Assembly: GCF_019977295.1 (NCBI RefSeq)
Contig: NZ_AP024651.1
Location: forward strand, 2,170,001-2,234,000
Source of the DNA: Arthrobacter sp. StoSoilB20
GTDB taxonomy: Bacteria; Actinomycetota; Actinomycetes; Actinomycetales; Micrococcaceae
Direction of reading: 5' to 3'
Length of the DNA: 64,000 bases
Position 1 is the first letter of the stretch. Every line of letters starts with the position of its first letter. Below are positions 31,139-49,222 of the stretch, piece after piece. A program made the translations under genes and the position numbers. The notes under the pieces were generated by a model that was not told the origin of the DNA, did not search any database, and saw only the letters and a list, made by a program, of their open reading frames with translations.

Positions 31139-31197
31139 GAGCCCTCCTGGGCTGTTGAATGAACGGGCAGAAGAAGTGTGAGGGCTGACGGGGCGGT

Positions 31198-32118: not shown

Positions 32119-32283
32119 GATCTATTCCTTTTCGAGGCATCTGGGTGGTTTTTCGGGCAGACACTCAAGAGGGTGCTGGAACTCTGAATGCCGGGACTTG
32201 AGCAGGGGCAAGAACACATCCGAAACAGCGGTTTTGTCTCCAAGGCCACTCTCTGTTTTGAGGGCGTTGATCCGCGGACGTCT

Positions 32284-32520
32284 CTAAGCTGCGTGGCGGA
32301 CAAAGGTTCCCGGCAGATTTTCGATGATGCGCCTGCTCAAGACTCCGTCGTGCATCAACCACAACATCGATCCATCAGTGGCAACGTCATCGACTCGGCC
32401 ATGGTCTATCAGGCTCCCGTTTCTGAAGATTTCGACGTCTTGACTCTTAAGCGCTGTCCAGTCGTCAATGGGTTGCCAGGGGGCTGTCACGTAGGACTTT
32501 CCTGGCAGGAAATCAGGCAA
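32284..32520 (-). CDS. Small conserved hypothetical protein (TTG start)
   Basis: 78 residues. Translation appears to begin at TTG 32520, with AAGGA seven bases upstream; no ATG lies near the domain start. DDWTALKSQDVEIFRNGSLI, then DHGRVDDVATDGSMLWLM and RRIIENLPGTFVRH, suggest a small beta-rich domain. I associate similar W..LKG...EI..DG...G.VD.VT.DGS.LWL proteins with Micrococcales, function unknown. It lies between the isomerase and esterase genes, with wider spacers than elsewhere in the operon (137 and 165 bases). Confidence 0.55.
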   Translation of the reverse strand: MPDFLPGKSYVTAPWQPIDDWTALKSQDVEIFRNGSLIDHGRVDDVATDGSMLWLMHDGVLSRRIIENLPGTFVRHAA

Positions 32521-32657
32521 TGTAGGTCCTTACCTTTAGTGACAGCCGCCCATCCATGCCGTCTGCTTGACCGGGGTGGATCGGCTCCTATGTGCCCATG
32601 AACTGAGCATTCCTCCGCCCTCGTGCCCGGCGGAGCTCCGAGTAGACGTGTTGCCCG

Positions 32658-33398
32658 CTATTGGCCGAGATCGATGTCGGAAAGAAATGTCAAGGACCTG
32701 CTGATGCCCTCGAAGAGGTCCCCGGTGTAGTCGTCAAATTCGACTACACCTGTTTCCAGGTGCTCTGCTGCCCGGAGGATGTCAGTCACACGCATTGCCC
32801 CGTCGCCGGCAGGCAGCTGGGCCGAAGTATCGGTGGTGATTGGCCCATCCTTGATGTGGATGAGCCTCACTCGGTTGCCGAGCCGGGTCAGCAGATCCAC
32901 GACGTTTTGCCCGCCCACGGCCGCCCAGTACGTGTCGATTTCCAGGACAACTTCCGGATCCAACAAGCTGGAGAAGTACTCAAGGGCCGTGTCGCCGTCG
33001 ATGGTGCTCTCCAGTTCCCAGGCATGGTTGTGGTAACCAACGCGGATGCCGTAATCGGCCCCCTTCCGGGCCGCGGCATTAAGTTTCTCCGCTGTAGCTT
33101 GAATCGTTTCCCGGTCCTGCCAGTGTTCGGGCGGCAGGAACGGATCGATAACTGTCGTGATGCCCAGTTCTTTTGCTGCTGCAAAGATCTCATCCTGGTC
33201 CTGGCTTAAGAGCGGAGCGTGTCCGGAAGGAGCCGCAATTCCGTTCTCCTTCAGCGCGGCACCGAGTTCCTTGACGGTGGCGACGAAGTTGTACGGTTCC
33301 ACTTTCGTGTAGCCGATAGCGGCGACTTTCCTGATGGTGCCTGGCAGGTCTTCCTGAAGGGAATTACGCAGCGTGTATAGCTGGAGGGAGTAGGACAT
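32658..33398 (-). CDS. Sugar phosphate isomerase/epimerase (TIM barrel)
   Basis: 246 residues from ATG 33398 (MSYSLQLYTLRNSLQEDLPG), which has an AAAGGAAAAC ribosome site; the longer frame is rejected. Barrel marks: GYTKVEPYNFVAT, VGYHNHAWELES (His), VVLEIDTYWAAVGGQNVVDL (Asp), VRLIHIKDGP and VVEFDDYTGD. It is a shorter subgroup than the 333-residue protein at 27724, so the operon has two different barrels and may run two successive steps on an oxidised glycoside (for example, elimination and rehydration). It follows the ABC permeases. Confidence 0.85.
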   Translation of the reverse strand: MSYSLQLYTLRNSLQEDLPGTIRKVAAIGYTKVEPYNFVATVKELGAALKENGIAAPSGHAPLLSQDQDEIFAAAKELGITTVIDPFLPPEHWQDRETIQATAEKLNAAARKGADYGIRVGYHNHAWELESTIDGDTALEYFSSLLDPEVVLEIDTYWAAVGGQNVVDLLTRLGNRVRLIHIKDGPITTDTSAQLPAGDGAMRVTDILRAAEHLETGVVEFDDYTGDLFEGISRSLTFLSDIDLGQ

Positions 33399-33441
33399 GT
33401 TTTCCTTTGACGTCTTGAGGCTTCGAACCTTGTGGTGTGTG

Positions 33442-34326
33442 TTAGCGTCCAGCAAGGGATCCGCCGATGCCGCCGACGCTGAAGTACTTGTTCAAGGTGG
33501 CGAAGAGGATGATGGGCGGGACCATCATCACGACGGCGAGGGCCATGACTGAACTCCAGTCGGTGAGGTTCTGTTGGAAGAATGACTGGACGCCCAAGGG
33601 CAGAGTAATGATCTCGGTTGATCGAAGGAACACGATGGCTACGAGGTAGTCGTTCCATGCGAGCAGGAACGCGAAAATCGCTGTGGAGAGCACTCCCGGC
33701 AGGGAGTTGCGCAGTACGACCTTGGTAAAGGACCCGAAGACCGAACACCCGTCGATCCATGCTGCTTCCTCCAGGCTCATGGGAATGGAGTCGAAGTAGG
33801 CGGCCATCATCCAAGTTGCCACGGTCATCGTGGACCCGACATAGATGATGGTCAGGCCCAGAAGGTTGTCCACCAGGCCCATCCCGGCGAAGAGGATGAA
33901 CAGCGGTACTACTGAGGTGATGATGGGCAGGGACTGCATCACAAACAGGAGCAGTGAGTAGCCGGAGACTGCTTTGCTCCTGCCGCGGGAGAGGACGTAG
34001 CCGGCCGGTGCTGCCACGGCTACAGATACGACAACCGTCGCCAACGTCGTGATCAGGCTGTTCTGCAGCCAAGTGGTGGCAAGGGTTTCGGAGAAGATGT
34101 AGCCGAAGTTTTCCAAGGTAAAACCTGTGGCGGTACCTGTAGGACCTGGTGTCAACGAGAGAACTATCGTCACCATGATAGGAACGAGAACGATGGCGGT
34201 GAGGATGAGAACCAGGACGAATCTCCACCAGCGACCCCGAGTCCCGGCTTCAGGAAGTACCGGGGGTTTGCTTGTGGTTCCGGTGGCCTGGCCAGTTTCG
34301 GCGGGTGTATGCAGTACTGCATTCAT
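33442..34326 (-). CDS. Carbohydrate ABC transporter permease (MalG-like)
   Basis: 294 residues. About six hydrophobic segments and the cytoplasmic EAA loop LEEAAWIDGCSVFGSFTKVV, typical of CUT1 sugar importers. It forms a heterodimeric channel with the product of the gene directly upstream; start and stop abut. No ATPase gene is present in the operon, so a shared MsiK-like ATPase must energise it, as is usual in actinobacteria. Confidence 0.9.
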   Translation of the reverse strand: MNAVLHTPAETGQATGTTSKPPVLPEAGTRGRWWRFVLVLILTAIVLVPIMVTIVLSLTPGPTGTATGFTLENFGYIFSETLATTWLQNSLITTLATVVVSVAVAAPAGYVLSRGRSKAVSGYSLLLFVMQSLPIITSVVPLFILFAGMGLVDNLLGLTIIYVGSTMTVATWMMAAYFDSIPMSLEEAAWIDGCSVFGSFTKVVLRNSLPGVLSTAIFAFLLAWNDYLVAIVFLRSTEIITLPLGVQSFFQQNLTDWSSVMALAVVMMVPPIILFATLNKYFSVGGIGGSLAGR

Positions 34327-35286
34327 TTATTCGACGCTCGACTTTCGGATCTGGCGGTAGAGAAGGACCGACACCACGACGAGGGTGACCGTCATGAGGA
34401 AGGCGATGGCCACGCCCGGGCCTGTTTGGAAGTTCTGGAACACCGTGCGGTAAGCCAGAACCACGAGGGACGTAGTCGCGTCGACGGGACCGCCACCGGT
34501 GAGCAGGTAAATGGTGGGGAAGTCATTGACACAGAAGATCGTCATAAGGATCCAGCTGATATAGGTGGAGCGGGCGATCAGCGGCAGCGTGATTTGGCTA
34601 AGCTGCTGCCAGCGACTGGCGCCATCCATGCTGGCAGCTTCGTAAACGGAAGTGTCGACGGAAGCCAGGGCGGAGGACGTCATCATCATCATGAACGGGA
34701 AGCTGACCCACACCTTGAAGATCATGACGGTAATGGCGGCCAAGGCAGGGTCGGCCAGAAACAGGGGGGTACCCAGGCCCAAGCTGCGAAACAGGGCGGG
34801 AACGGGACTGTCAGGCGTTGCTACCAACCAGTTCCAAGCGGCCGCGGAGACCACGATCGGCACTACCCAGGGCAGGAGCAGCAGCACCTTGAAGATTCCG
34901 TTCCCCGGGATCTTGGTACGCAACAGCAGGGCCAGCCCTATTCCGACAAGCCAGGAGCCGAACACTCCGACGACAGTGAAGAGCAAGGTGAAACGTGCGG
35001 CCTTCCAGAACGCTTCAGAGGAGAGCACGCTGGCGAAGTTTTCCACCCCGATGAAGTTGCCGGTCTCGATCAGTGAACCGTCGTGAGTAGCCTGCACTCC
35101 GGCATAGATGAGGGGATAGGCATGGATGAGTACCAGCAAAACCACCGATGGCAACAACAGCCAGAAGAAGGTCCGGCGGGTCTGCGTGCTGAGTTTGCTC
35201 TTGCGGTTTCCCGGTAGACCGGACCCGCCGGGGGCTACGCCCCTGCGGGCCCGGTCCAGGCCGGTACGTGCTGTGAACGAGGACAA
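34327..35286 (-). CDS. Carbohydrate ABC transporter permease (MalF-like)
   Basis: 319 residues with a basic N-terminus and about six hydrophobic segments. The EAA loop is VYEAASMDGASRWQQLSQIT. It pairs with the MalG-like permease encoded right after it and with the binding protein encoded 14 bases before it. Together they form a CUT1-type importer for oligosaccharides or glycosides. Confidence 0.9.
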   Translation of the reverse strand: MSSFTARTGLDRARRGVAPGGSGLPGNRKSKLSTQTRRTFFWLLLPSVVLLVLIHAYPLIYAGVQATHDGSLIETGNFIGVENFASVLSSEAFWKAARFTLLFTVVGVFGSWLVGIGLALLLRTKIPGNGIFKVLLLLPWVVPIVVSAAAWNWLVATPDSPVPALFRSLGLGTPLFLADPALAAITVMIFKVWVSFPFMMMMTSSALASVDTSVYEAASMDGASRWQQLSQITLPLIARSTYISWILMTIFCVNDFPTIYLLTGGGPVDATTSLVVLAYRTVFQNFQTGPGVAIAFLMTVTLVVVSVLLYRQIRKSSVE

Positions 35287-35300
35287 CGTTTCAGCCTTTA

Positions 35301-36626
35301 CTATTTCGTTACGGATTCGATGCCGGTCTGCAATTCACGCAGAGCGGTCTTCGCATCGGTCTTACCACCAAGGACCGTCTGCGTGAACTGGCCAAGGAAC
35401 TGACCGCCCTCTACAGCTGCCAGGTCGGCGAAGAGCCTAGTACCTTGGGCGCTGAATGACTTGGAGATCGGCTGCCAGTCTTTGATGATCTTGACGTTGT
35501 TGGCATCCTTCTGGAACTCGGGAAGTTCCGTGATGGATTTGAACACCGGCATCGCTCCGACCAAGCCCTGCTTCCACAATTCCTTCAGCTGGCCCAGGTA
35601 GTAAATCAGGAATGCTTCAGAAGACTCCTGCGACGGGGTGTTCTTGTACATCATGATGTTGTTGCCGTACGTGAGGGTTGCTTTGTCGCCATGCGGGCCC
35701 GTGAGTGGATCCGCCACCAAGATGTCACCCGTGGTGTCCCCGGCGCGAGCGGGAAGGCCGGGGGAGTGGGTGCCGAAGGCGATCTTCTTGTCCCTCCACT
35801 GGGTGGTGAGGCTGTCCTCGTTGTAGCTCAGCGCGGCCGGGTCCACGATCCCGTTGGACACGAGTTCACGGATGAACTCCACGGCCTCGACGTTACGGTC
35901 GTTAAGGGCATCCGGCTGGCCGTCCTTGGTAAACAGGCCGCCGCCGTTGTTGAGCAACATCTGGATCACGGACTGGACTCCGATGTTATTTCCCGCGCCG
36001 GCGCCGGTACCGAAGGCGAATGCTCCGATTGCCTTAAGTTTCTTGCCGGCTTCCAGCAGTGTGGGCCAGTCCTTGGGAAGCTCGGTTCCTGCCTGCTCGA
36101 AGAGTGACTTGCGGTACCAGAAGACGCGCGGGTCCAGCTGCCAGGGGATGGCGATGTAGCCCTTGTCGGACTCGAAGGGTTCGAGCACGCCGGGGAGGAA
36201 GTCATCGAACATCCCGTTCTTTTTTAATTCCGCGATGACGTTGTCGGCATAAGCGATCTGGTTCTGCTCTTCGAACTGGAAGGCCTGGAAGCCGGCGCCG
36301 GTGGACACTGCAGGCCCCGTCTTGGACGCGATGGCCGAAGAGAAGGTCTGGTAGTAGTTGGTCCATGGGATCGACTGGTAGGCAGCCTTGGCTTTTCCGC
36401 CTTCAGGTGCGTACGATTCCGTGATCTTTTTGGCTGCTTCCGTGTAGGAGGCCGGCCCCCATGGCATGTCCCAGAACTTCACTGTGGCCCCAGCGCCCGA
36501 CCCGCCGCCTTGGGAGGATCCTGCGCCGCAAGCGGCGAGAAGCGGGACTGCGGCAGCTGCGGCCGTGAGTCCGAGAAAGCCACGGCGTGAGACTGATTTC
36601 GCGGTAATGCTGTTGGGATTCATCAT
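35301..36626 (-). CDS. Sugar ABC transporter substrate-binding lipoprotein
   Basis: 441 residues from tandem ATGs at 36626, with AAGGAAAG upstream. The leader has both a twin-arginine motif (VSRRGFLGLTAAAAAVPL) and a lipobox (LLAACG), so it is a Tat-exported lipoprotein anchored outside the membrane. Family-1 extracellular binding-protein marks include VKFWDMPWGPASYTEAAKK and an aromatic-rich SIPWTNYYQTF segment. It captures the substrate for the two adjacent permeases. The ligand is not readable from sequence, but operon content suggests a plant glycoside or disaccharide. Confidence 0.9.
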   Translation of the reverse strand: MMNPNSITAKSVSRRGFLGLTAAAAAVPLLAACGAGSSQGGGSGAGATVKFWDMPWGPASYTEAAKKITESYAPEGGKAKAAYQSIPWTNYYQTFSSAIASKTGPAVSTGAGFQAFQFEEQNQIAYADNVIAELKKNGMFDDFLPGVLEPFESDKGYIAIPWQLDPRVFWYRKSLFEQAGTELPKDWPTLLEAGKKLKAIGAFAFGTGAGAGNNIGVQSVIQMLLNNGGGLFTKDGQPDALNDRNVEAVEFIRELVSNGIVDPAALSYNEDSLTTQWRDKKIAFGTHSPGLPARAGDTTGDILVADPLTGPHGDKATLTYGNNIMMYKNTPSQESSEAFLIYYLGQLKELWKQGLVGAMPVFKSITELPEFQKDANNVKIIKDWQPISKSFSAQGTRLFADLAAVEGGQFLGQFTQTVLGGKTDAKTALRELQTGIESVTK

Positions 36627-36693
36627 TGCTCTTTCCTTTTCGGACCTGGTGTCCCCGGCCCTGCTCGACGTTGAGATGGATAATTTAGAACTG

Positions 36694-37482
36694 CTAGAGG
36701 TGTGTGACCGCGGCTTCGAATTCCGCAAGGTCCGGTGCGGTGGAACCGCTGGAAGCGAGTGCTGCCAAGCGTTTCCAGGTTGCGCGGTGGGAAGATTCGT
36801 AAATTGTTGGGGCAGTCAGTGACCCCTGCGGGTCTGTTCTCTTCAGCGTTGCCGGGCGGGCCGTATCAGGAGCCGGGATCAACAAGTCGACACAACCGGC
36901 TTTGGTTAGCATCCGCACACGCACGTCGTTGTCCGAAGCGTTCGAGACGACGGCAGTTATGGTCACTGGAGCCCTTGACCCGGTGAAGGTGGCGGCAACG
37001 GTAAAGCCGTTCTTGTTGGTGCGAAGACTGCGAACGTCATCCAGGGGGCCTAGAAGCCTCGCGGCCAGCACCAGCAGTTCTGCCCCTACCTGCGCGGTCG
37101 GGATGCTGCCCCGTATATAGGCTATGACTTCAACCAGGACGCTGTCGGAGGCCGCCTGTTTGAAGGCCTCCGCCGCCTGAGGTATCGCAGGATTGGAAGC
37201 CCACCGGAAGCCCAACACCACGGGTACGGCCTTGCTGGCCGCGAGTCTTTCAAGAGACTGCGTCTCGCCTGGTTCCGGCGCGATCACCGCGACGCCGGCC
37301 GCACCCTTGGTGATGGTTTCGGCGGCTCGATGCGCCCAACCATTCGTGCCGGTCACGCCCTGCAACGTTGCCGTATCCGCCTGTCCCGGTGCCAAGGACA
37401 TGGGCAGGGAAGCAACGACAGATGCGACGTCGCCCGTTTCAGCGGCCCCGTTGTCCGCATGGACGCCGAATGTGGCTTTCAT
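36694..37482 (-). CDS. Hypothetical protein, possibly a Gfo/Idh-like relative
   Basis: 262 residues from ATG 37482, which overlaps the dehydrogenase stop (ATGA) and has a GGAGG site. I do not recognise a family with confidence. VVLGFRWASNPAIPQAAEAF, then SDSVLVEVIAYIRGSIPTAQ, followed by a hydrophobic LLVLAARLLGPLDDVRSLRT and beta strands, parallels the C-terminal half of Gfo/Idh proteins. The N-terminus lacks the G-x-G-x-x-G loop. It may be a non-catalytic partner of the upstream dehydrogenase, comparable to small subunits in other glycoside-oxidising systems; that is inference. Other roles remain open. Confidence 0.6.
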   Translation of the reverse strand: MKATFGVHADNGAAETGDVASVVASLPMSLAPGQADTATLQGVTGTNGWAHRAAETITKGAAGVAVIAPEPGETQSLERLAASKAVPVVLGFRWASNPAIPQAAEAFKQAASDSVLVEVIAYIRGSIPTAQVGAELLVLAARLLGPLDDVRSLRTNKNGFTVAATFTGSRAPVTITAVVSNASDNDVRVRMLTKAGCVDLLIPAPDTARPATLKRTDPQGSLTAPTIYESSHRATWKRLAALASSGSTAPDLAEFEAAVTHL

Positions 37483-38564
37483 GCTGCGGCCTCCTGTCGT
37501 TTCAGTGCCGCCGACGCCGCTGCGTCGGCTATTGCGAGTGCGAATTGCAGGTCTTGGATCAGAGTGTCGGCGCTTGGAGGACTGGCTTCGCCCCGCGCCA
37601 GGAGCGCAAGGAACTGCCATTCCGCCTCGTAACCATTGGCATCAAAAGGGCCAAAGACCTGGGTCTTCTCGCCGTCCGATATTTCGGCCACAGCCGAGCC
37701 GGCCTGCACGTAGGAGGGTGTGAAAGTCACCCTAAGGGATTTCGTGTCACTGAATGCTTCGAAGGTCCATTCGGGTTCCCAGCTGTCGGACATGACGGCC
37801 TGCAGATCAACGTTCCGGCCGTCGGCCTGGGCAAGTATGAGGTAGCCGAATGGCTCCAGGGCCTCGGCGCAAAGTACCTCGAGATCAGTAAAAGAAGGGA
37901 CGAAGCGGCGCACCAACGGAAGGTCATGGATCGCCAGTCCCATGACTCCTCCACGGATCGAGTTCTCCAGAACGGTTGGGTCGCGGAGGTCAGGGGCGGC
38001 CGGGGGAGTGACCGGCCGGTTGATAACTTCCGTGGCGAAATCCTCAAAGCGAGGATTAGGAGGCAATACGATTGATGACCGCAAGGTGTGTGCTGTGTCG
38101 GCCAGGTCGCCCCAGGCTTCCTCCGCTGCTTTCCACCCAGGGTCGAAGGTATGCATCGCGCCCACAATGATCGGTACGCCGGTCTCGGTCGAAACTTCCG
38201 AGATTCGGGCCGCTTCTTCGCCGCTCATGGCAAAGGGCTTTTCGCAAAGGATCGCGCGCTTGCCAGCCCGGCATGCAGCGATAACTTGTTCGGCATGGAA
38301 CTGGTGAGGGCTGCAGATCACCACTACCTCGACCTCAGGGTCAGCCAGCAGTTTCTGGACGCTGGTGGAAAAACGTGCGCCGACCCGGCCGGCAACTGAT
38401 TCAGCAATGCCCGCGTCGACATCCATGACATGGGCCACAAAGAACGTGTGGGTGAGCCGGGCCAAGGTGGGCAGGTGAATTGCCTGCGTGACAGGACCTG
38501 CTCCCAGTATTCCAACTCCTAAGGGCGGCGGGGCTGTTGTCTCCTGCTGTTCGACAGCGGACAT
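37479..38564 (-). CDS. Gfo/Idh/MocA family oxidoreductase
   Basis: 361 residues. The start was chosen at ATG 38564 (MSAVEQQETTAPPPLG): the preceding in-frame ATG at 38570 touches the GAGGAG ribosome site directly, and the duplicated copy at 41657 has ATT in its place. Domain marks are GVGILGAGPVTQAIHLPTLA (NAD loop), VVICSPHQFHAEQVI, AILCEKPFAMSGEEAARI (EKP) and MGLAIHDLPLVRRFVPSF. Probably an NAD-dependent sugar or glycoside dehydrogenase. It is the first gene of the twelve-gene operon, behind the promoter segment with the AAACAGCTGTTT operator. Confidence 0.88.
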   Translation of the reverse strand: MSAVEQQETTAPPPLGVGILGAGPVTQAIHLPTLARLTHTFFVAHVMDVDAGIAESVAGRVGARFSTSVQKLLADPEVEVVVICSPHQFHAEQVIAACRAGKRAILCEKPFAMSGEEAARISEVSTETGVPIIVGAMHTFDPGWKAAEEAWGDLADTAHTLRSSIVLPPNPRFEDFATEVINRPVTPPAAPDLRDPTVLENSIRGGVMGLAIHDLPLVRRFVPSFTDLEVLCAEALEPFGYLILAQADGRNVDLQAVMSDSWEPEWTFEAFSDTKSLRVTFTPSYVQAGSAVAEISDGEKTQVFGPFDANGYEAEWQFLALLARGEASPPSADTLIQDLQFALAIADAAASAALKRQEAAA

Positions 38565-38715
38565 GTACATCTCCTCATTGATCTGAACACTTGCGTCACA
38601 GGGTGTGGGCTACGCCACCCGAAAAGACATCGTGCGTTTACTTTTCACTAAATATAAACAGCTGTTTTGGATTTGGCAAGACGGGAGCAGGATGGGATAC
38701 CCAGAAAGGGAAGAG
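38546..38715. repeat. Duplicated promoter segment, copy A
   Basis: 170 bases matching 41639-41808 at 136 of 170 positions in an ungapped comparison. It includes the first codons and ribosome site of the Gfo/Idh gene and the spacer upstream of it. It ends in a purine-rich AAGGGAAGAG that, in copy B, sits just before the TetR start. No TetR gene follows here. Confidence 0.85.
38656..38667. promoter_or_regulatory. Operator palindrome of the glycoside operon
   Basis: AAACAGCTGTTT, perfectly symmetric, 92 bases upstream of the Gfo/Idh start. The copy B equivalent is AAACAGATGTTT. Conservation within a diverged duplicate supports binding by the TetR protein encoded at 41814. Confidence 0.6.
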
Positions 38716-38884
38716 AAACACCCGCAAGTCGCAGAGCCCCTCGGGCTCTACTGCGTGTGTGCGGTAAGTGAGCAGCCGGCTTCAGGTAGGTTGACCCGAG
38801 GTGTCGAGTGGCGTTTCGGCACTGGCCGGATAACATATCGGTCACGCTGCATCGAAAGTGGAATCCTTGACCCGCGGACGTGAT

Positions 38885-38919
38885 GAGGACGCAGGGTCAC
38901 GGCCTGACCCTGCGTCCTC
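38885..38919. terminator. Terminator hairpin of the GH116 gene
   Basis: GAGGACGCAGGGTCA pairs perfectly over 15 bases with TGACCCTGCGTCCTC around a 5-base loop. It lies 31 bases past the GH116 stop and separates that gene from the promoter of the next operon. Confidence 0.75.
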
Positions 38920-38949
38920 TGTTGGTGCACGTGCGTTAGATGTGCGCTG

Positions 38950-41622
38950 TCATTGGCGGCGGGCCGATGCGTATGTGTCCCAGGCGGCCAGTGCCCGGAC
39001 GTAGTAGGCCGCCCGGTAGGTGGTGGTGTCGTAGCCGTTCCATGCCTCGGGGGTGTTGAAGGCGAAGGCGCCACCTGCGGCGGCGGTGGGGCTGTATATC
39101 TGGTGCACCAGGCCCTCTGCGAGCTCGTTGCCGTCGGCGACAAGGTCGGGGCGTCCGAGCCGTCGGCCTTCCCGGATGAGCGTTCCGGCAAACTCGAAGT
39201 TCGTCCCGGTCCACACCTCCGCGGCTTGGAAGCCCAGTTCCCTGGGCCGGCCGGGTATTACCGGGTAGGGCTTGCCGCCGATCGGGACGAGGTTCGGCGC
39301 TCCAAGCATGTGCCCTGTGGAGTCCTTCACCTGCGTGAGATGGTCGAAGGTGTTGGTCAGGTGAGCGGTCACGCGTTCGGGCGGGTTGATGTCGGGCAGC
39401 CCGAGTTGCTCGGCCACGTGCTGGGGCCACAGCACGTCGACGAAGACGTCCGTGGACCTCGCGCCTGCGTCGGTGAACTTGTAGTAGCTTCCGGTCCAGA
39501 AGGCGGACTCGTATGCCTCTAGGGAAGCCGCCCGCGTGTTGTTGAGGGTGTCGACATCAACCGTCGAGGCTTCGGAGATGCCGAGCCGCTTGGCGTCCTC
39601 GGTAGCGGCTGCCATGATGTCCGCGGCCAGGATGTACAGGCCCGAGGTGTAGACCCCGTGTACTCCGCCAGATTGCCCCATCACGTCGTAGGTGCTGGCG
39701 AAGGTGGCCGGCTCCGTGGGCAGCGTGTCGCCCTGCGGTATTCGGGGTAGAACGTCGTGTGTCCAAAGGCGGAGCATTGCCGGGTATGCGTCGCGCAACA
39801 GGGAATCGTCGCCGGAGCTGCGATACGCTCCGTAGGCGCGGATCAGGTATTTGACCGGACGGTCGAAGAAGGTGGTTTCGGGTGTGGCTGGGCTGGTTGA
39901 GGTCTCCCATAGCAGCCAAGGCGCGCTCAGGTGCCACCAGCTATAGCCCTCGACCGGGGGGTTGAAGCCGGGGCTGCCGGGCACTCGGCCGTTAGGGTCT
40001 TGGGCAATCATCTCGGAGGTCGCGCGGACCCAGTCGGCTTCGATGGAGGGAAACAGCTCACGCAGGGCGATGGCCATCTGGCCTTGGACATCGAGCTCCC
40101 CGGCGTCGGCCCAGCCACCACCAGTGAGCGTGTGGAACAGGTGGGTGCCGGGGACGGCCGAGCCTGGTCGGGGCGCTCCGGTCTGGTGTGGGCTGGAGAC
40201 GAGGCCCGATTCCCAGAAGGAGCCGTTGAACGTGAGCTGACTGAGTTCGTTCAGGGCGGCCATGCGGATCGCGGGCGACACGGTGTCATCGAATGCCACC
40301 GGCTTCCACCAGCGTTCCACCGCTTCCTCTGCCTCGTCTCGGCGTGTGAGGTTCCGCGCAGCAATGGCGAAGCCCTGGTTGCCGGGATAGCTGCCGGCGA
40401 CGTAGTTGTTTTGTTCGTCTTGACGGGCTCCGTAGAAGGAGGTGTAGCGCCTCATCCAGGATGTGTCGCCCTCAGTACCGAACGTGATCTGTGGGAAGTC
40501 CCAGGCCAGGACGAAGCGAACGGTTTGCGTTTTATTAGGTGGCAGGTTCATCTCGACTGCGAGGGCGCTGGCGGAGTTGCTGTCGTCGAGGGCAGAGTTG
40601 GGGAGGCTGCCGGTTGCGCTGAAGGGGGTGTAGATGTCGGAGCCGTCGCCGTCGGCGTTCCAGGAAGTTGCGTACGAGACTCGCTGTCCGGGTTCACTTC
40701 GCACGGCAGTCGTCCACTCGCTGTTCTGTGAGTCTGCGGTGTTGGTGGGGCTGGATGCGCCTAGGGTGATGCCGGTGATTTTGTTCCGGTGATCGACGGT
40801 CTCGTGGCTGGTGAAGCCCGTGCGGACGCTAGGCACGGGGCTGGGGGTGTTCTGCACCGTGGCGCCCACGTGAGCTGGAGCGTTGGGGAAGGTGAACATG
40901 GTCGACACGTTCGTCGGCTTGCTCGTTTCGTTTTTAAGTTCCACATCGAAGTAGGCCACGGGTTGGGAGGAGGACTCGTCGTTGCCGGCCACGATGGGTG
41001 TCCAGAACGTTGTTGACACGGATGTGGAGGGTACGGGGTCGGCGTAGTCGATGCGGCCGTAGGGGTAGAGCGCGCTGTATGTTCCGCTCCCAGCATCCAG
41101 GGTCGACCATGCAGGGAGGACGGACCCGAACTCGGAGCTGTTGACGGCGAGCGTCTTGGTCGTGGCGGTTTGGCCTGGCTGCTGTTCACGGATGTGGATG
41201 GCGGCCTGAGGCAGGATGCGCTTTTCGTAGTTCGTGTTTGTCGATCCGCCCATGTTCCACGGACCGAAGGTCCCGGCCTGGTTGATCATGAACGAACCTG
41301 CCCCGAGTCCACCCAGCGGAATCCCCAGGCCGGGCTGAGCCATGGGATTGCCGAGCTGGAACGGCGAGGTATTGGGTTCGGAGGTATCACCTGCACAGGC
41401 TTGCCAGACGTGAGGGCTGCATGGGGTGCTTCCAATGACTCCGAGAGGCCGCTGGTATGCGGCCTCACCCAAGGCCGAGTGTCCCGCCGGTTCCGCAGCG
41501 GGCGCGGGCGGCGGTGACGCCAGGGCTGGTGCGATGGTTGTGGCGGCTATGCCCGCCGCAGCAACGACGGCAACTAAGCGCAGGCTTAGGCCGTGGGTTG
41601 TAAACAAGGTTGGCTTTTTCAT
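38950..41622 (-). CDS. Secreted GH116-type glycosidase (glucosylceramidase-like)
   Basis: 890 residues with a signal peptide (LRLVAVVAAAGIAATTIAPA). The GBA2-like N-terminal domain starts with GLGIPLGGLGAGSFMINQAG. The catalytic (alpha/alpha)6 domain holds FNGSFWESGLVSSP, STYDVMGQSGGVHGVYTSGL with the likely acid/base aspartate, SAFWTGSYYKF, QAAEVWTGTNFEFAGTLI and the closing TPEAWNGYDTTTYRAAYYVR. GH116 enzymes cleave beta-glucosides or beta-xylosides with retention. Here it would act outside the cell. The gene sits between two copies of a 170-bp regulatory segment and has a coupled leader ORF. Its ribosome site is poor, which fits coupling. Confidence 0.85.
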   Translation of the reverse strand: MKKPTLFTTHGLSLRLVAVVAAAGIAATTIAPALASPPPAPAAEPAGHSALGEAAYQRPLGVIGSTPCSPHVWQACAGDTSEPNTSPFQLGNPMAQPGLGIPLGGLGAGSFMINQAGTFGPWNMGGSTNTNYEKRILPQAAIHIREQQPGQTATTKTLAVNSSEFGSVLPAWSTLDAGSGTYSALYPYGRIDYADPVPSTSVSTTFWTPIVAGNDESSSQPVAYFDVELKNETSKPTNVSTMFTFPNAPAHVGATVQNTPSPVPSVRTGFTSHETVDHRNKITGITLGASSPTNTADSQNSEWTTAVRSEPGQRVSYATSWNADGDGSDIYTPFSATGSLPNSALDDSNSASALAVEMNLPPNKTQTVRFVLAWDFPQITFGTEGDTSWMRRYTSFYGARQDEQNNYVAGSYPGNQGFAIAARNLTRRDEAEEAVERWWKPVAFDDTVSPAIRMAALNELSQLTFNGSFWESGLVSSPHQTGAPRPGSAVPGTHLFHTLTGGGWADAGELDVQGQMAIALRELFPSIEADWVRATSEMIAQDPNGRVPGSPGFNPPVEGYSWWHLSAPWLLWETSTSPATPETTFFDRPVKYLIRAYGAYRSSGDDSLLRDAYPAMLRLWTHDVLPRIPQGDTLPTEPATFASTYDVMGQSGGVHGVYTSGLYILAADIMAAATEDAKRLGISEASTVDVDTLNNTRAASLEAYESAFWTGSYYKFTDAGARSTDVFVDVLWPQHVAEQLGLPDINPPERVTAHLTNTFDHLTQVKDSTGHMLGAPNLVPIGGKPYPVIPGRPRELGFQAAEVWTGTNFEFAGTLIREGRRLGRPDLVADGNELAEGLVHQIYSPTAAAGGAFAFNTPEAWNGYDTTTYRAAYYVRALAAWDTYASARRQ

Positions 41623-41657
41623 AGGACTGCTATCTCGTGCTGTTCGAGAGCGGACAT
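41619..41657 (-). CDS. 12-codon leader ORF coupled to GH116
   Basis: An ATG with a GAGGAG ribosome site six bases upstream opens MSALEQHEIAVL and stops at TGA overlapping the GH116 ATG (ATGA). The first eight residues mirror the Gfo/Idh N-terminus MSAVEQQE, so this is a relic of the duplicated Gfo/Idh start. It probably delivers ribosomes to the GH116 start, which lacks a good site of its own. Confidence 0.55.
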   Translation of the reverse strand: MSALEQHEIAVL

Positions 41658-41808
41658 GTAAATCTCCTCATTGATCTGAACATCTGCCTGACTGGATGTG
41701 CTCTAGGCCACCCAAAAAGAAACCGATCGATTCGGTTTCGCCAAACATAAACAGATGTTTCTGATTTGGCAAGAGGGTCATAGGATGGGACACCAAGGAA
41801 GGGAAGAG
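41639..41808. repeat. Duplicated promoter segment, copy B
   Basis: The counterpart of 38546-38715. It lies between the GH116 gene and the divergent TetR gene and ends six bases before the TetR ATG. An extra inverted repeat, AAACCGA-TCGAT-TCGGTTT at 41720-41738, is present only in this copy. Confidence 0.85.
41749..41760. promoter_or_regulatory. Operator palindrome upstream of TetR and GH116
   Basis: AAACAGATGTTT, five-base symmetric arms, matching the site at 38656-38667. It is placed to control both the TetR gene and the divergent GH116 gene. Confidence 0.55.
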
Positions 41809-41813
41809 GTGGA

Positions 41814-42494
41814 ATGTCAGTTTCACTCACGAGCCGAGGCCCGTATAAGAAGGGTGTCCAACGGCGTCAAGAAATCGTCGATGCCGCTGCGCGTGTATTC
41901 GCCAGGCACGGCTATCACGCGGGTTCTCTGCGTCACATAGCCGAGGAAGTTGGCGTAACCGGAGCGGCTTTAATCCGCTACTTCGGCAGCAAGGAAGGAC
42001 TGCTGGTAGCGGTTCTACGCCGCTGGCAGGAGGAGTCGTCCCATTGGCAAGGGCCTCACACGGGTCTTGAACACATCCGGGCGCTGATCCCACTCATGCG
42101 GTACCACGTAACGCACCGCGGGTTCATCGAACTTTTTCTGACCCTGAGCACCGAGGCCTCAAACCCGGACCATCCCGCCCGCGGATTTATCGTCAAGCGT
42201 TACGAAGAAGCGCTCCACGGATTCAATCGGCAGCTGAGCATTGCCCGTGACGCCGGCGATATCCTGCCGCTTACTGATGATGCCATCGATTTGGAGTCGC
42301 GCTCCTTGATCGCACTCATGGACGGGATGGAGCTCCAGTGGCTGCTCAATCCCGACCTCGACCTTGTCACCAAATTCCAGGCACAGGTGAACATCACCAT
42401 CTCCCGCTGGACCGGAAGGAGCATCGAAGAAGTCACGCTTGAGACAGAGACATGGCTGGAACGCGTGAACTCCGGGCGCGATGCCGCGATGTGA
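41814..42494 (+). CDS. TetR family regulator of the GH116/Gfo-Idh modules
   Basis: 226 residues from ATG 41814 with a GAAGAGGTGG ribosome site. After SLTSRGPYKKG comes the helix-turn-helix (GYHAGSLRHIAEEVGVTGAA then LIRYFGSKEGLLVAVL). The effector domain includes the DGMELQWLLNPDLD motif shared with the TetR proteins at 18536 and 50911. It is divergent from the GH116 gene across copy B of the repeated segment. The same palindrome lies ahead of the twelve-gene operon, so one repressor probably governs the extracellular glycosidase and the intracellular pathway together. Confidence 0.88.
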   Translation: MSVSLTSRGPYKKGVQRRQEIVDAAARVFARHGYHAGSLRHIAEEVGVTGAALIRYFGSKEGLLVAVLRRWQEESSHWQGPHTGLEHIRALIPLMRYHVTHRGFIELFLTLSTEASNPDHPARGFIVKRYEEALHGFNRQLSIARDAGDILPLTDDAIDLESRSLIALMDGMELQWLLNPDLDLVTKFQAQVNITISRWTGRSIEEVTLETETWLERVNSGRDAAM

Positions 42495-42620: not shown

Positions 42621-43775
42621 CTACCCACCGCGGAGCCATTCACCAATGCGCTCGTTTCCCACGAACCTATCAGCCATGCGTAGGTAGCCGGCGGTGTTCG
42701 GGTGCAGTCCGTCCGGGAGGTCCGGAGCATCGTTGAGTCCGAAGAGTTCGAGGCCGTTGAGGTAGTAGAGCGCCGAATCGGTTGCAGATCTGGACGTGAC
42801 GATTTCGGCCAACAACAAACGTATCTCTGTGAGGTTCAAGGACCCGATGTTCTGTCCTGTCACGGGTGGCGGAACGGTGCGAAGCTTCCCGGAGCGCGCG
42901 TCCCAGGTGATCGGTCCCGGGTTCGTCTCCTGCATTGGGCAAGCGATGGGGGAAATGAGAAGGATCGGTACTTCCGGTTTTGCCTCCCGGATGGTGTCCA
43001 GGAACGCGTGGACGGCCGGTATAAAGGTTCTGCGTTTCATGGTGTCCCCGTTGGCGATGTTGATGCCAACTTTGAGGCTGATGAGATCCGCTTCCAGGTC
43101 CCGCATGATGCGTGCGACGAAGTGGTCAAGGTGGGCACCTCCGCCGAAAGCCATTGAGGTCAGATTTAGGCCGAGCTTTCGTGCTGCCACGGCTGGCCAG
43201 GTTGAGAGCGGCGAGTCCGCCTCGGCGCAGTGGCTGATCGAACTGCCGTAGTGCGTCCATCGAGGAATGTCGGAGTGCGGCGTCGGCTGGAACGGGGCGT
43301 CGGCTTTAAGGTCGAGGATCTCGATGCTGGCGTTGTTGGGGAGCCAGATCTCAACATCGCGGGCAGTGCCGTCCCCGCCGAGCTCGAATATCAGCGAGGC
43401 GGGCTTTCCCGTGTGATGTTCGGGAGGACCACCAAGCTGAAGTACGTCGTAGGGTCCTTCAGTTTCCCATTGCTCCATTGTCAGGTCACCGCTGACGGCA
43501 CCGTAGGTGACCAGGACTGAAGCAGGGTCCATTCCGGGGTACAGGCGCCGGGTCGAAAGAGCGGTCAACGTAAGACATCTGGCCGCTGTCGTAAACGCGA
43601 GACGGACACCCGAAGGCTGCGTGGCGTTGATCCTGAGCGTTTCTTCGTCGTGATAGGAATCCACCGACCGAGGAAGCCGGTGGGGAACCACACCTCCGGA
43701 AGTGTGTTCTACGTCCAGAGCTCCGCGGAGAGCCTGAACGATGATGTCCCGCGTGGGCTCGCTCAGGGAATTCAT
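42621..43775 (-). CDS. SGNH/GDSL-family hydrolase
   Basis: 384 residues from ATG 43775, which overlaps the GH3 stop (ATGA). An N-terminal beta-rich domain precedes the SGNH core: THYGSSISHCAEADSP with the nucleophile Ser, GVNI-like KVGINIANGDTM (N block), and the terminal DGLHPNTAGY Asp/His pair. There is no signal peptide. Enzymes of this build are carbohydrate esterases or lipases. Coupled to GH3 and an importer, it probably deacylates an imported oligosaccharide; inference. Confidence 0.83.
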   Translation of the reverse strand: MNSLSEPTRDIIVQALRGALDVEHTSGGVVPHRLPRSVDSYHDEETLRINATQPSGVRLAFTTAARCLTLTALSTRRLYPGMDPASVLVTYGAVSGDLTMEQWETEGPYDVLQLGGPPEHHTGKPASLIFELGGDGTARDVEIWLPNNASIEILDLKADAPFQPTPHSDIPRWTHYGSSISHCAEADSPLSTWPAVAARKLGLNLTSMAFGGGAHLDHFVARIMRDLEADLISLKVGINIANGDTMKRRTFIPAVHAFLDTIREAKPEVPILLISPIACPMQETNPGPITWDARSGKLRTVPPPVTGQNIGSLNLTEIRLLLAEIVTSRSATDSALYYLNGLELFGLNDAPDLPDGLHPNTAGYLRMADRFVGNERIGEWLRGG

Positions 43776-45562
43776 GGTCGGGCCTCGTCCACGTCCAACC
43801 CCCATCCCAGGGGAAACAACGGTTCCTCTGTATCGGAGGGCACATCGGGGCGGCTCGCAAAAACGGCTTCCATAGTGCGTGGTAGCTCGAAGGGGAGCTT
43901 CCCTCGGGGACGGACCCGACCGGTGAGGACGTCGAGAACGGCGGAGTCGGAAGCGCCATAATCAGCGACGATGGCAGACGCAAAGGCGGCTATGGGTGTC
44001 AGTATGGCGGGCCTGGTCAGCGTGACAACGAAGACCAAGGGAACCTGCCGGGCAATTGTTCTCAGCTGCTCGACGTATTCCTCGGAAAAGTCGAGAGACC
44101 CCTGTTCCATCCCGTTCTCAAGGAAGTAGGTGTCGCGTTTTTCGTAGGGAGCATGGGCTCGCACGATCGCGACCGTTGACTCTTCCAGTGATGATGGCGT
44201 CCACCCTCCCGGCAACACGGAAGTTTCGATGTCGACGAGGTAGGCCTTTTGCGGCCCGGTAACGGGCAGCACCTGCGCGCCTTCTTTGTTCTGGTTCATC
44301 AGCACGGTGAGCGACTCTGACTGTGTGACCCTGCCAAGATGGATGTGTTCAGCGGTCCCGATCTCCACGTTCGTTTCAGAGGCACGAGGGGTTAGGATCC
44401 CGAGGTCATGCATCAGGGTAACTGTGCGGCGGGCTGATTGATCGAGGCGGTCTTCGCTGATTTCGCCGGATTCAAGAAGGCCGATTAAGAGTTCGGTATC
44501 ACTTTCACCGCCGAATTGGTCGACGCCCGCCTTGAGAAGCTTCATAACCCGCTGGCGGCGATTCAGGTGCTCCACACCCCATGCGCGGGCGGGGAACGGC
44601 TTACCGAAAACGGTTACGTCGGTGATCAGGCCGAAGTCGCTGAGGATGATCCCGTCGAATCCCAGCTCCTCGCGAAGCAACTGGGTCAGGATCTGGCGAT
44701 TGAAGGCGAAGCCGACTTCCTCGACGGGTTCACCGTTGAGGGTCAGCCCGACGGGCATACCGTAGTAAGGCATGATTGCTGCCGTGCCGGCATCGATCGC
44801 GGCTTTGAACGGGAGCAGGTGGTCACGCAGTCGGCCTCCAGGGTAGACCTGCTCGCGCCCGTAGGGGAAGTGCGGGTCCTCGCCGTCGAGTTGAGGGCCG
44901 CCTCCCGGGAAGTGCTTTGTCGTTGCGGCAATGCTTGTTGGTCCCAGGGTGGTGCCCTGCAGGCCTTCGAGGTAGGCCCTAAGGAGGGTTGCGGTGAGCT
45001 GCGGCTCGGCGCCGAACGATTGGGCTTGCCGGGCCCACCGTGGCTCCGTCGCAAGATCGACTTGGGGGTGGAGGGCCATGCGCACGCCCATGGCCAGGTA
45101 ATCCTGCCGGACAATGTCGGCGAAGGTCCGCACAGCTTCGGGGTCACGGAGGGCGCCGAGTCCGATAGGTTCGGGCCATTGCGAGACACCACTCGCCCGG
45201 TGGCTTGCGCCTGCGTTCTGGATAAATGAGTGTCGTGGGTCTGAGGAGAAGATAATCGGCAGTCGTGACCCAGTGGACGTAGCAAGGTCCTGCAGGACCT
45301 GAAGTACTGGGGCTGCCTTGGCCGGCTCGGGCATGCTTGCGAGGCAGAAGTATCGGATGCCCTTATCCACGATGAGGTGACGCAGAGTGTCGCCGCCCAG
45401 CGGGGAAGGTGCGTCGAGGTCGAGATCCGCGTCGACCATCACCATAGGCTGGAAGAGCAAGCCGACTTTCTGCGCAGTAGTGAGGCCGCCGATGATTTCG
45501 TCGACACTCCTGCTGTGCAACGTTGTCGATACGCCGGTGGGGTTCATTAGCTCGTCCATCAT
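43772..45562 (-). CDS. Glycoside hydrolase family 3 (beta-glycosidase)
   Basis: 596 residues, cytoplasmic. The architecture matches the GH3 at 15215-16999: SSDPRHSFIQNAGASHRASG, LHPQVDLATEPRWARQ, KHFPGGGPQLDGEDPHFPYG, the nucleophile D309 in IILSDFG and a C-terminal PLFPLGWGL. The two are clear paralogues with separate modules and regulators, so they probably serve different glycosides. Start and stop overlap its neighbours by ATGA on both sides, placing it in the ABC operon. Confidence 0.92.
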   Translation of the reverse strand: MMDELMNPTGVSTTLHSRSVDEIIGGLTTAQKVGLLFQPMVMVDADLDLDAPSPLGGDTLRHLIVDKGIRYFCLASMPEPAKAAPVLQVLQDLATSTGSRLPIIFSSDPRHSFIQNAGASHRASGVSQWPEPIGLGALRDPEAVRTFADIVRQDYLAMGVRMALHPQVDLATEPRWARQAQSFGAEPQLTATLLRAYLEGLQGTTLGPTSIAATTKHFPGGGPQLDGEDPHFPYGREQVYPGGRLRDHLLPFKAAIDAGTAAIMPYYGMPVGLTLNGEPVEEVGFAFNRQILTQLLREELGFDGIILSDFGLITDVTVFGKPFPARAWGVEHLNRRQRVMKLLKAGVDQFGGESDTELLIGLLESGEISEDRLDQSARRTVTLMHDLGILTPRASETNVEIGTAEHIHLGRVTQSESLTVLMNQNKEGAQVLPVTGPQKAYLVDIETSVLPGGWTPSSLEESTVAIVRAHAPYEKRDTYFLENGMEQGSLDFSEEYVEQLRTIARQVPLVFVVTLTRPAILTPIAAFASAIVADYGASDSAVLDVLTGRVRPRGKLPFELPRTMEAVFASRPDVPSDTEEPLFPLGWGLDVDEARP

Positions 45563-46449
45563 TTCTTGTCGATGCCGGAAGTCGTTGTGGCTGCTCGTTC
45601 CCGTCGGCGTTCTGCCTGACGCTTGGGGTCAGCCGCCGGGGCGGCCAGTAGCAGGCGCTGCGTATAGGGGTGCTCCGGCGTGGTGGTGACTTTGGCCCCT
45701 TCGCCGGTTTCAACTATCTGCCCGCGGTACATCACCGCGACCCTGTGGCTCATGACCCGAACGACACTAAGGTCGTGGGAGATGAACAGCAGGGCTACGT
45801 TCGTCTCTTGTTGTATGTCCAAGAGCAGTTCCATGACCCTCGCCTGGGTTGTCAGATCCAACGCGGAGACAGGTTCGTCGCAAATGATGAGTTTGGGTGA
45901 GAGTGCAAGTGCTCGTGCGATGGCCACCCTCTGACGTTGCCCTCCACTGAATTCGCGTGGGTACCGTTGGAGGGCGTCGGACGGCAAGTGAACGACGTCG
46001 AGCAATTCGCTGATGCGTTGTGCAGCTTCTTTGCGCCGGATGCCCCCGGCCCTCAGGGGTTCTGACAGAGTGTCACCGATGGTCAGAGCAGGACTAAGCG
46101 AGGAATACGGGTCCTGGAAGACAGCCTGCATTTCCCCTGCAAGTTGGCGGCGGCGTTGTTTACTGGCAGTCGTTATGTCTTCCTGATGGTAGGTAACCGT
46201 TCCGCCGGAAATGGGTGCCAGACCTAGTACGGCCCTTCCCAGTGTTGATTTGCCGGAGCCTGATTCCCCCACCAATCCAACGGTTTCGCCGGGCCGAACA
46301 TTGAGGCTGACCCCATGAAGGACCTGAAAGCTCTTTCGGCGTAGGCCTTTGGATCGGTACGTCACTTCCAGATCGTTGATTGCGAGCAACGGCTCCGCAG
46401 ATCCAGCGGCGGTTTGCGGCTGAGCCGCTGTTGCGTTTGGCGACCTCAT
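45559..46449 (-). CDS. Oligopeptide/oligosaccharide ABC transporter ATP-binding protein (DppF-like)
   Basis: 296 residues. Walker A GLVGESGSGKSTLGRAVLG, signature FSGGQRQRVAIARALALSPK, Walker B LIICDEPVSALD and the switch HDLSVV are intact, and the C-terminal YTQRLLLAAP motif is typical of the Opp/Dpp family. It works with the ATPase domain fused to the permease encoded upstream. Near cellobiose-type GH3 enzymes, Opp/Dpp importers often carry oligosaccharides, which I favour here. Confidence 0.9.
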   Translation of the reverse strand: MRSPNATAAQPQTAAGSAEPLLAINDLEVTYRSKGLRRKSFQVLHGVSLNVRPGETVGLVGESGSGKSTLGRAVLGLAPISGGTVTYHQEDITTASKQRRRQLAGEMQAVFQDPYSSLSPALTIGDTLSEPLRAGGIRRKEAAQRISELLDVVHLPSDALQRYPREFSGGQRQRVAIARALALSPKLIICDEPVSALDLTTQARVMELLLDIQQETNVALLFISHDLSVVRVMSHRVAVMYRGQIVETGEGAKVTTTPEHPYTQRLLLAAPAADPKRQAERRRERAATTTSGIDKK

Positions 46450-48230
46450 GCCATCACCTCATGGTTTGTCCACGCCGGGCGTGCAGGTGCATCGTCCAGT
46501 AGGGCGGCGAATAGTTTCTTGGTGTAGTCGTGCTCAGGGTTGTTGAACAATGTTTCAACAGAACCGGTTTCGATGATGGATCCTGAGCGCATCACTGAGA
46601 CTCTGTCGGCAAGATCAGCCACCACCCCGAAATTGTGGGTCACGAGGAGCATGGCTAGTCCTTCTTCCCGCTGGAGGGTTCGCAACAGATCGAGGATCTC
46701 GGCTTGAACGGTGACATCGAGCGCTGTGGTGGGTTCGTCGGCGACTATTAGCGCAGGTTTGCAGGAAACGGCTCCGGCTATGAGCACTCTTTGGGCCATA
46801 CCCCCCGAAATTTGGTGAGGATACGACGAGTAAACCCGCTGAGGATCGTTGATGCCGACACGTTCCAGGAGGCGCATCACGGTCTCTCGTGCCGCTTTCC
46901 GGTCCATGTTCAGCAGGACCCGCAGCGGTTCGCAAAGCTGGTGCCCGATGGTGTAGGAAGGGTCCAGGTTCGACAGTGGCTCCTGCGGCACGTATCCGAT
47001 GTGGCGGCCGCGGATACGGGCGAGGACCTGGGGACGGGCCGAGGTCAGCTCGGTTCCTTCCATCCGAATGGTGCCGGCCATGATCCTTCCGCCCTCAGGC
47101 AAAAGACCGAGAATGGACCATGCTGTCTGGGTCTTACCCGACCCGGATTCGCCAACCAGGGCGTGAACTTCTCCCGGGGCGATTCTTAGGGATACCCCAT
47201 CAACCACAGTTTTCCATCCACCGTCTACCTGGTAGGAGACGGAGAGTGAATCGACGTCCAGGAGAGCCTTCTCCTCGGGGGAGCTGTTTTCGTGGTTGAT
47301 GGGCGGGGCGGGGCGGGGGCGGGGTGGCGACCACACCAGTCGGCGGTCTTCGGTCCTGTCTCCGGTCAATTCAAGCTCATCACGAAGCGCAGATCCGAGC
47401 AGTGTGAACGCTATACAAGTCAAACTGATGGCAAGGCTGGGCCAGAGAATAAGCATGGGACCGCGGAAGATGTTGTAAAAACCCTCGGAAAGCATTCCGC
47501 CCCAGGAGGGAAGTGCGGGATCGCCAAGCCCAAGGAAGTCAAGGGCGGCTTGGATGGCTATGCTGACGCCTAGTAACCCGGCAGTCAAGAGGATGGCGGG
47601 GGCTCGAACCGCCGTCAGGACATGGCGCCTGATAATCCGGCTGTCCGTTAGCCCAGACACTTTGGCGGCATCAATGTAGAGCTCCCCACGCACACCTCGG
47701 ACCGCATTAAAGACGACCCGGTAATACGACGGGGCCAAAATGACACCGAAGATTCCCATGACGACCCACAAGGAAGGGCCTACAACTGCTCTCACCGCCA
47801 GAAGTACCACGATTGCTGGCAGGGAAAGGATTACCCCTGACAACCAGGCTGATAAGGTATCGAACCATCCGCCACGGTATCCGGCGATCAGACCGCTTGG
47901 GATACCGATAGCAGCGGCGACGACGACCGCGACAGCCGCTCCGGCGAGGCTTACCGACGTGGCGTGAATGAGCCGCGAAAGGACATCACGGCCGGCACTG
48001 TCCGCACCGAGAAGATGCTCGGGGGATTGCGGGGCAAAAACCAGCTGCAGGGATGCTGCGTTTGGATCATAAGGTGCAATAAGAGGACCTATTAGAGCTA
48101 CCAAAATGATGGCGGCTATATAGGCTGAGGCAGCGAGACCTAAAGGGTTGCTCAGCAAGCGGCTTGACAGGGATTTCCTGCGTCCCGCAGTGGGCAGGGC
48201 ACGGTCTAGGGCTTCGATTTGCTGGGTCAT
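46446..48230 (-). CDS. Fused ABC permease and ATPase (DppC-DppD type)
   Basis: 594 residues from ATG 48230, which overlaps the permease stop (ATGA). Residues 1-290 or so are a DppC-type permease with the EAA loop ELYIDAAKVSGLTDSRIIRR. A short linker rich in Pro/Arg follows. From about 330 comes a DppD-type ATPase with VGESGSGKTQTAWSILGLLP, HQISGGMAQRVLIAGAVSC and LIVADEPTTALDVTVQAEIL. Normally these are two proteins; the fusion is uncommon but known in actinobacteria. Together with DppB-like and DppF-like proteins it makes a full importer. Confidence 0.9.
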   Translation of the reverse strand: MTQQIEALDRALPTAGRRKSLSSRLLSNPLGLAASAYIAAIILVALIGPLIAPYDPNAASLQLVFAPQSPEHLLGADSAGRDVLSRLIHATSVSLAGAAVAVVVAAAIGIPSGLIAGYRGGWFDTLSAWLSGVILSLPAIVVLLAVRAVVGPSLWVVMGIFGVILAPSYYRVVFNAVRGVRGELYIDAAKVSGLTDSRIIRRHVLTAVRAPAILLTAGLLGVSIAIQAALDFLGLGDPALPSWGGMLSEGFYNIFRGPMLILWPSLAISLTCIAFTLLGSALRDELELTGDRTEDRRLVWSPPRPRPAPPINHENSSPEEKALLDVDSLSVSYQVDGGWKTVVDGVSLRIAPGEVHALVGESGSGKTQTAWSILGLLPEGGRIMAGTIRMEGTELTSARPQVLARIRGRHIGYVPQEPLSNLDPSYTIGHQLCEPLRVLLNMDRKAARETVMRLLERVGINDPQRVYSSYPHQISGGMAQRVLIAGAVSCKPALIVADEPTTALDVTVQAEILDLLRTLQREEGLAMLLVTHNFGVVADLADRVSVMRSGSIIETGSVETLFNNPEHDYTKKLFAALLDDAPARPAWTNHEVMA

Positions 48231-49168: not shown

Positions 49169-49222
49169 GGGTATGGTTACGAGCGCCGGGGGCGAGGCTG
49201 CTCCTGTTCCCCGGCGGCACGC

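Follow-up and report, generated by a model that had tools for sequence, protein, structure and literature searches.

How newly acquired genes gain sensible regulation is an open question. The stretch of DNA analysed here, 64,000 nucleotides from Arthrobacter sp. StoSoilB20 (contig NZ_AP024651.1; hereafter the window), holds a gene for a GH116-family glycosidase with a copy of the promoter of an adjoining pathway on either side, and the locus raises the question of whether that promoter was duplicated in place or came with the gene. Our analysis indicates that the pathway promoter and start probably became part of a moving gene, rather than forming a duplication frozen in place. Here regulatory DNA and start codons appear to accompany a gene, in a case concrete enough to be tested.

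Two copies of the gfo promoter flank the GH116 gene

The features on which the analysis rests are the following (window positions).

37479..38564, minus strand: gfo, encoding a Gfo/Idh/MocA oxidoreductase (Pfam PF01408), with AGGAG 6 nt upstream of its second ATG (MSAVEQQE)
38531..38715, minus strand: copy A, with a TTGCCA-17-TATATT promoter, a Shine-Dalgarno (SD) sequence and the first gfo codons
38716..38878: the 163-bp stretch that separates copy A from the GH116 unit
38885..38919: hairpin 3' of GH116, a 15-bp inverted repeat with 15/15 pairs
38950..41622, minus strand: gene for the GH116-family glycosidase, 890 aa (Pfam PF12215 and PF04685), with a signal peptide by eye
41619..41657, minus strand: leader ORF, MSALEQHEIAVL-stop, derived from the captured start of gfo, with a TGA that overlaps the GH116 ATG
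41624..41808, minus strand: copy B, with a TTGCCA-17-TATGTT promoter, an SD and gfo start codons, 5' of GH116
41814..42494, plus strand: gene for a TetR-family regulator (Pfam PF00440), divergent to gfo in relatives

Ungapped alignment of copies A (38546-38715) and B (41639-41808) gives 136 identities in 170 positions, and the repeat can be extended to 38531-38715 and 41624-41808 (147/185 identical). Random 170-nt pairs drawn from the window (198,906 of them) gave a mean of 44 and a maximum of 87 matches, so the two matching 170-bp copies reported in the first-pass annotation lie far above chance. When copy B was compared with the 4.78-Mb genome it matched itself, copy A (E 8e-41) and a single 24-base stretch (E 0.22). 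The palindrome AAACA-NN-TGTTT that had been placed in each copy is indeed present in both, where it occupies the -35/-10 spacer. A consensus scan predicted one sigma-70-like promoter per copy, both directed at gfo/GH116, and none directed at TetR in either copy; the earlier description of the repeat as a divergent promoter thus applies to the gfo/GH116 direction. Both copies were also said to carry a ribosome site and the first Gfo/Idh codons. Each does have AGGAG 6 nt upstream of a shared ATG followed by gfo codons, except that the shared start is the second ATG of gfo and the first has been lost from copy B (ATG TAC ATG in copy A, ATT TAC ATG in copy B).

Directly past its promoter, at 41719-41739 on the minus strand, copy B contains an inverted repeat with perfect 8-bp arms, GAAACCGA/TCGGTTTC, and then a run of five T. 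The repeat folds into a stem with a terminator-like score, and a perfect 8-bp repeat of this kind is absent from copy A; it is possibly an operator, a 5' stabiliser or an attenuator. For the stretch at 38716-38878, a query covering 38701-38884 matched only itself at E <0.08 among the loci compared.

A borrowed gfo start leads into GH116

On the minus strand of copy B the sequence ATG TCC GCT CTC GAA CAG CAC GAG is gfo-like and runs onward to a TGA; promoter, SD and codons of gfo stand directly before GH116. The resulting leader, MSALEQHEIAVL, has 12 codons, and its stop overlaps the GH116 start in the ATGA at 41622-41619. The SD scan placed AGGAG 6 nt upstream of the leader and gave, for GH116 itself, matches of at most 3 nt to the ribosome-site consensus applied. 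With the leader TGA overlapping its ATG and no good ribosome site of its own, GH116 is likely to be translationally coupled to the leader. In translational coupling through an ATGA overlap, an SD-less gene starts where an upstream ORF, itself provided with a good SD, ends. The leader and GH116 share this layout, with the difference that the upstream ORF is here the captured 5' end of another gene.

The empty site in Arthrobacter sp. Soil736

The resident operon begins with gfo, and nine of the ten ORFs examined have a Pfam match; the TetR_N DNA-binding domain of the adjoining regulator scores 63.4 bits. The most informative relative is Arthrobacter sp. Soil736 (NZ_LMSB01000002.1), in which the TetR protein is 86% identical to that of the window. 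Loci L069 and L082 of this genome are overlapping parts of one stretch and contain, in window order, TetR, one promoter, gfo, p36694, SBP1, MalF, MalG and TIM1. Beyond TIM1 follow Gfo2, TIM2 and then ROK, which in the window precedes them, and the hydrolase at 31198-32118 has no counterpart in the Soil736 stretch. GH116 is absent from this locus and from the Soil736 genome as a whole (E 1e-30). Divergent TetR and gfo matches less than 700 bp apart occur in 19 of 80 loci, Soil736 included (best 80 of 546 TetR matches). Another close TetR/gfo locus is that of Paenarthrobacter nitroguajacolicus (TetR 84%). A metagenomic lineage is represented by gfo P0124 (88%) and TetR P0247 (82%), both with a longest contig of 3,537 bases that is probably the same contig, and this contig has no space for GH116 between two complete genes.

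Between window and Soil736, dS is 0.35-0.42 for TetR, gfo and p36694. Over 27724-42494 as compared with L069, the values fall into two classes, 0.32-0.42 (TetR, gfo, p36694 and TIM2) and 0.95-1.26 (SBP1, MalF, MalG, TIM1 and Gfo2), and the operon is therefore itself a recombinant mosaic. The TetR gene of the window is flanked by the gfo operon on one side and a GH3/ABC operon (42621-50752) on the other. In two other genomes of the genus (L071 and L073), a TetR of this family adjoins an oligopeptide-type ABC operon that contains a gfo homologue and, in L073, also a GH3 gene.

GH116 is rare and has relatives in Kribbella and Microbacterium

GH116 was found in 1/206 genomes of the genus, which is the window's own, and in 2/395 genomes of the family, the second time in two pieces with 46-47% identity. 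It occurs in 1/38 Kribbella genomes and in 3/295 Microbacterium genomes (86, 45 and 39% identity). No match was found at E 1e-30 in 72,556 plasmid records, a set from which records near the window's own genome were possibly omitted. Clusters of GH116 proteins were taken from the best 120 of 226 matches and those of Gfo from the best 120 of 609, each from 8,000 candidates scored.

Window positions 38879-41625 align ungapped with Kribbella sp. VKM Ac-2527 at 90.3% DNA identity, from just beyond the hairpin to 3 nt upstream of the GH116 start codon, and the six other matched genes of the Kribbella locus are 49-71% identical in DNA. GH116 there follows MalG of a homologous locus. Two overlapping ORFs with transposase-type DDE_3 and HTH_32 domains (L096:307-1448) adjoin GH116 in Kribbella, where they are a possible vehicle for the gene. 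Kribbella retains the hairpin 3' of GH116 with 14/15 pairs and the same loop, Microbacterium with 14/14 pairs and a different loop; the hairpin has no T-run.

In Microbacterium (genome G626) gfo points leftwards, and TetR and then GH116 point rightwards. Positions 38885-41775 of the window, which include the copy B promoter, are 84% identical to the GH116 end of this contig. The encoded GH116, which differs by about one residue from its counterpart in Microbacterium sp. B35-04, begins MSAVEQQEKSPT, which is the Arthrobacter-type gfo start (MSAVEQQE) fused in frame. The gfo of G626 itself begins MFDARRRDRMSMSGDRD and differs from the Arthrobacter-type start whichever ATG is taken. Near the start, the motif AV(E/D)QQE is found in 4/120 gfo clusters among the best 120 of 609 matches, namely the window's and its three closest; it also occurs in the Microbacterium GH116 cluster P0003 and in Soil736 gfo. 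A further GH116 cluster, P0006, and TetR cluster P0297 (49%) are both from Microbacterium sp. DT81.1 (longest contig 425,621) and probably lie on one contig. Besides this strain, close GH116 genes occur in Pseudarthrobacter sp. NPDC057230 and Rathayibacter caricis.

For GH116 itself dS is 0.27 against the Kribbella gene and 0.49 against the Microbacterium gene. In the GH116 tree the Kribbella gene, without leader, lies nearer the window than the Microbacterium gene, with leader (supports 93/93 and 94/97, unstarred), which implies that Kribbella lost the leader or received the ORF alone. Composition was uninformative for dating the arrival of the gene: GH116 (GC 0.645, GC3 0.786) is not foreign among its nine neighbours (GC 0.576-0.654, GC3 0.655-0.865).

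Copy B groups with the Microbacterium promoter

We compared copy A, copy B and the promoters of Soil736 and Microbacterium over 131 ungapped core columns. The two copies are not each other's nearest relatives: the number of differing columns is 10 for A-Soil736, 25 for A-B, 26 for B-Soil736 and 23 for B-Microbacterium. Nine of the ten informative sites pair A with Soil736 and B with Microbacterium, one pairs A with B and none supports the third option; the first grouping was recovered in 9,967 of 10,000 bootstraps. At the 121 columns where A equals Soil736, 19 differences are seen in B and 22 in Microbacterium, with both differing at 12 (3.5 expected) and bearing the same letter at nine. These nine sites lie between -13 and +48 from the first base of the -10 box. 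Judged from these alignments, the split of copy B from A would be older than that between the lineages of the window and Soil736, unless B evolved unusually fast.

The Soil736 promoter is a mosaic, B-like on the TetR side, where 36 columns hold 8 differences between A and B, 9 between A and Soil736 and 5 between B and Soil736, and A-like on the gfo side, where the corresponding differences in 143 columns are 29, 11 and 30 (Fisher p 0.0018; best-split permutation test for the switch, p 0.0035). Recombination through the promoter therefore appears to have made or unmade the arrangement, and insertion of a unit and loss of an old one predict the same pattern. The Microbacterium homology ends at the -35 box, beyond which copy A shows 36 further columns resembling the TetR flank. 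Since Microbacterium has no counterpart of this flank, the donor was not the Microbacterium version.

A promoter that may travel with GH116

The grouping of B with Microbacterium, the gfo codons fused to GH116 there and the 90% identity to Kribbella suggest that the promoter, the ribosome site, the start of gfo and GH116 move as one unit. We therefore favour, with a probability of roughly 0.55, the reading that a small mobile unit, with GH116 as its payload, joined the resident promoter by recombination. Such a unit would comprise the gfo promoter/operator, the ribosome site, the first gfo codons, GH116 and the hairpin. In its 5' part the unit is similar to the gfo start found in the window/Soil736 clade, and the homologous unit in Microbacterium has this start fused in frame. 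The unit would have entered when its promoter copy underwent homologous recombination with the TetR/gfo promoter already in place; for a circular molecule one crossover would suffice, and a promoter would be left on either side. Because GH116 is rare in the genus, insertion is moderately favoured over loss. Against the mobile unit, the raw distances of B to Microbacterium, A and Soil736 are nearly equal, and the shared differences of B and Microbacterium could in part be fast-changing sites. The mosaic would be explained just as well by an old local duplication from which Soil736 lost the gene. The 163-bp stretch matched no source among the loci compared, the TetR-side flank of copy A is missing from the Microbacterium version, the composition of GH116 is not foreign, and the leaderless Kribbella gene is the nearer in the tree.

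The history that best competes with the mobile unit is an old local capture, to which we give a real but minority chance. The promoter would have been duplicated around GH116 in the ancestor of the window and Soil736, the unit later copied to Microbacterium, and GH116 lost from Soil736 when recombination between both promoters left a B-A hybrid. The B-like and A-like sides of the Soil736 promoter are what such a loss would leave, A and B diverge to a similar degree over the whole repeat (8/36 and 29/143), as they would after one duplication, and the leader is of the gfo type of this clade. Three observations weigh on the other side, none of them decisive: GH116 is present in a single genome of 206 in the genus; the metagenomic lineage is also without it, so two losses would be needed; and its dS to Kribbella (0.27) is lower than the values for TetR, gfo and p36694 between window and Soil736 (0.35-0.42).

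The first-pass annotation had proposed that a TetR/gfo region was duplicated with GH116 captured between the copies. Of this proposal, the ancestral state is borne out, in that the GH116-less region is common (19/80 loci, best 80 of 546) and GH116, which is rare, took over gfo signals. A recent local duplication is very improbable and was rejected on the four-sequence comparison, since, even if two copies flank GH116 and a single-copy arrangement exists, A is much closer to Soil736 than to B (10/131 as against 25/131), B shares 9/10 informative sites with Microbacterium, and an in-frame version of the same capture occurs there. Paired promoters flanking a gene thus need not mean local duplication.

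An extension of the mobile-unit reading, which we consider doubtful, is that GH116 is a self-addressing accessory gene, carrying the promoter, operator and start of its partner operon both as regulation and as homology for integrase-free entry and exit. If this were true, GH116 would have been gained and lost repeatedly, each time landing under pathway control. Between the copies no long gene other than GH116 was read, so the insert brought neither an integrase nor a replication gene. In Campbell-type integration by a single crossover, direct repeats of the common sequence flank the insert and the copies are hybrid. The present locus is alike in its direct repeats on either side of the insert and in hybrid copies, and differs in that the common sequence is the promoter of the adjoining pathway. 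Four comparable states are available: empty (Soil736), with a leader ORF (window), with an in-frame fusion (Microbacterium) and without a borrowed start (Kribbella).

Promoter capture by horizontally transferred genes has been described, in the portions of the account considered here, with deletion and tandem duplication as routes and with short homologies at the junctions (PMC11111574). The likeness is that a foreign gene is expressed after joining a resident promoter. The cases presented in those portions lie within one genome and are mostly experimental, whereas here the joined promoter and start codons accompany GH116 in two genera. Titles and abstract openings in the literature included no published locus of this kind, which is no proof of absence.

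Predicted regulation of the two promoters

Under the mobile-unit reading, GH116 would be transcribed from copy B, and ribosomes would load at the borrowed gfo site, read the 12-codon leader and restart at the ATGA overlap. TetR, as putative repressor of both promoters, would cause the secreted glycosidase and the uptake/catabolic operon to be induced together. Control of gfo by TetR is predicted and is supported by the conserved divergent position; control of GH116 is plausible and has less support. Because the sites that separate the copies span -13 to +48 of the -10 box, A and B may respond differently, and the sensitivity of the two promoters would perhaps be unequal.

We examined 21 TetR/gfo-type regions for shared operator candidates. 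AAACA-GM-TGTTT was rejected as a conserved operator, being exact in three of them (A, B and Soil736). The dyad CGTTTA-N13/14-TAAACG occurs with at most two mismatches in 8/21 regions, copy A included (that of L083 lies elsewhere in its region). With the N14 spacing, copy A and Soil736 have one mismatch and copy B has three.

Whichever history applies, copy B may no longer be under this TetR, its promoter having arrived with GH116 as a constitutive or otherwise regulated element. The weaker dyad in B and the position of the nine separating sites around and past its -10 box would agree with this, but the spacer palindrome is intact in B, and in each of Kribbella, Microbacterium and the window the operon next to GH116 comes with a TetR of this same family; on balance we think such a release from TetR unlikely.

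Family and active-site residues of the GH116 protein

The GH116 protein matches Glyco_hydr_116N with 196.7 bits and DUF608 with 98.8 bits (cut-offs 30.2 and 26.3), and is predicted to be secreted from a signal peptide judged by eye. In profile comparisons its family is closer to chains of the TxGH116 beta-glucosidase (E ~1e-93) than to the exo-beta-D-arabinofuranosidase 8ic6 (E 5e-16). The acid/base and nucleophile of TxGH116 are given as D593 and E441 in the sections consulted of its description (PMC10167657). D593 aligns with D646 of the window protein, a column with D in 105/121 aligned sequences, and D452 aligns with D511. The two proteins differ in that E441 stands opposite T500, in a column with D in 74, T in 30 and E in 10 of the 121 sequences, and the substrate of TxGH116 is not transferable to the GH116 protein here. 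This correspondence comes from sequence alignment, in which subfamily nucleophiles may not align; those of subfamilies 1 and 4 are reported, in the extract seen, not to align by sequence and yet to coincide in structure (PMC10509167). Because the known GH116 nucleophile aligns with T500 and not with a glutamate, beta-glucosides, proposed earlier for transcript measurements, are unsupported as inducer or substrate and amount to a guess. Nine residues past T500, E509 lies at a position where glutamate is kept in 70/121 aligned sequences.
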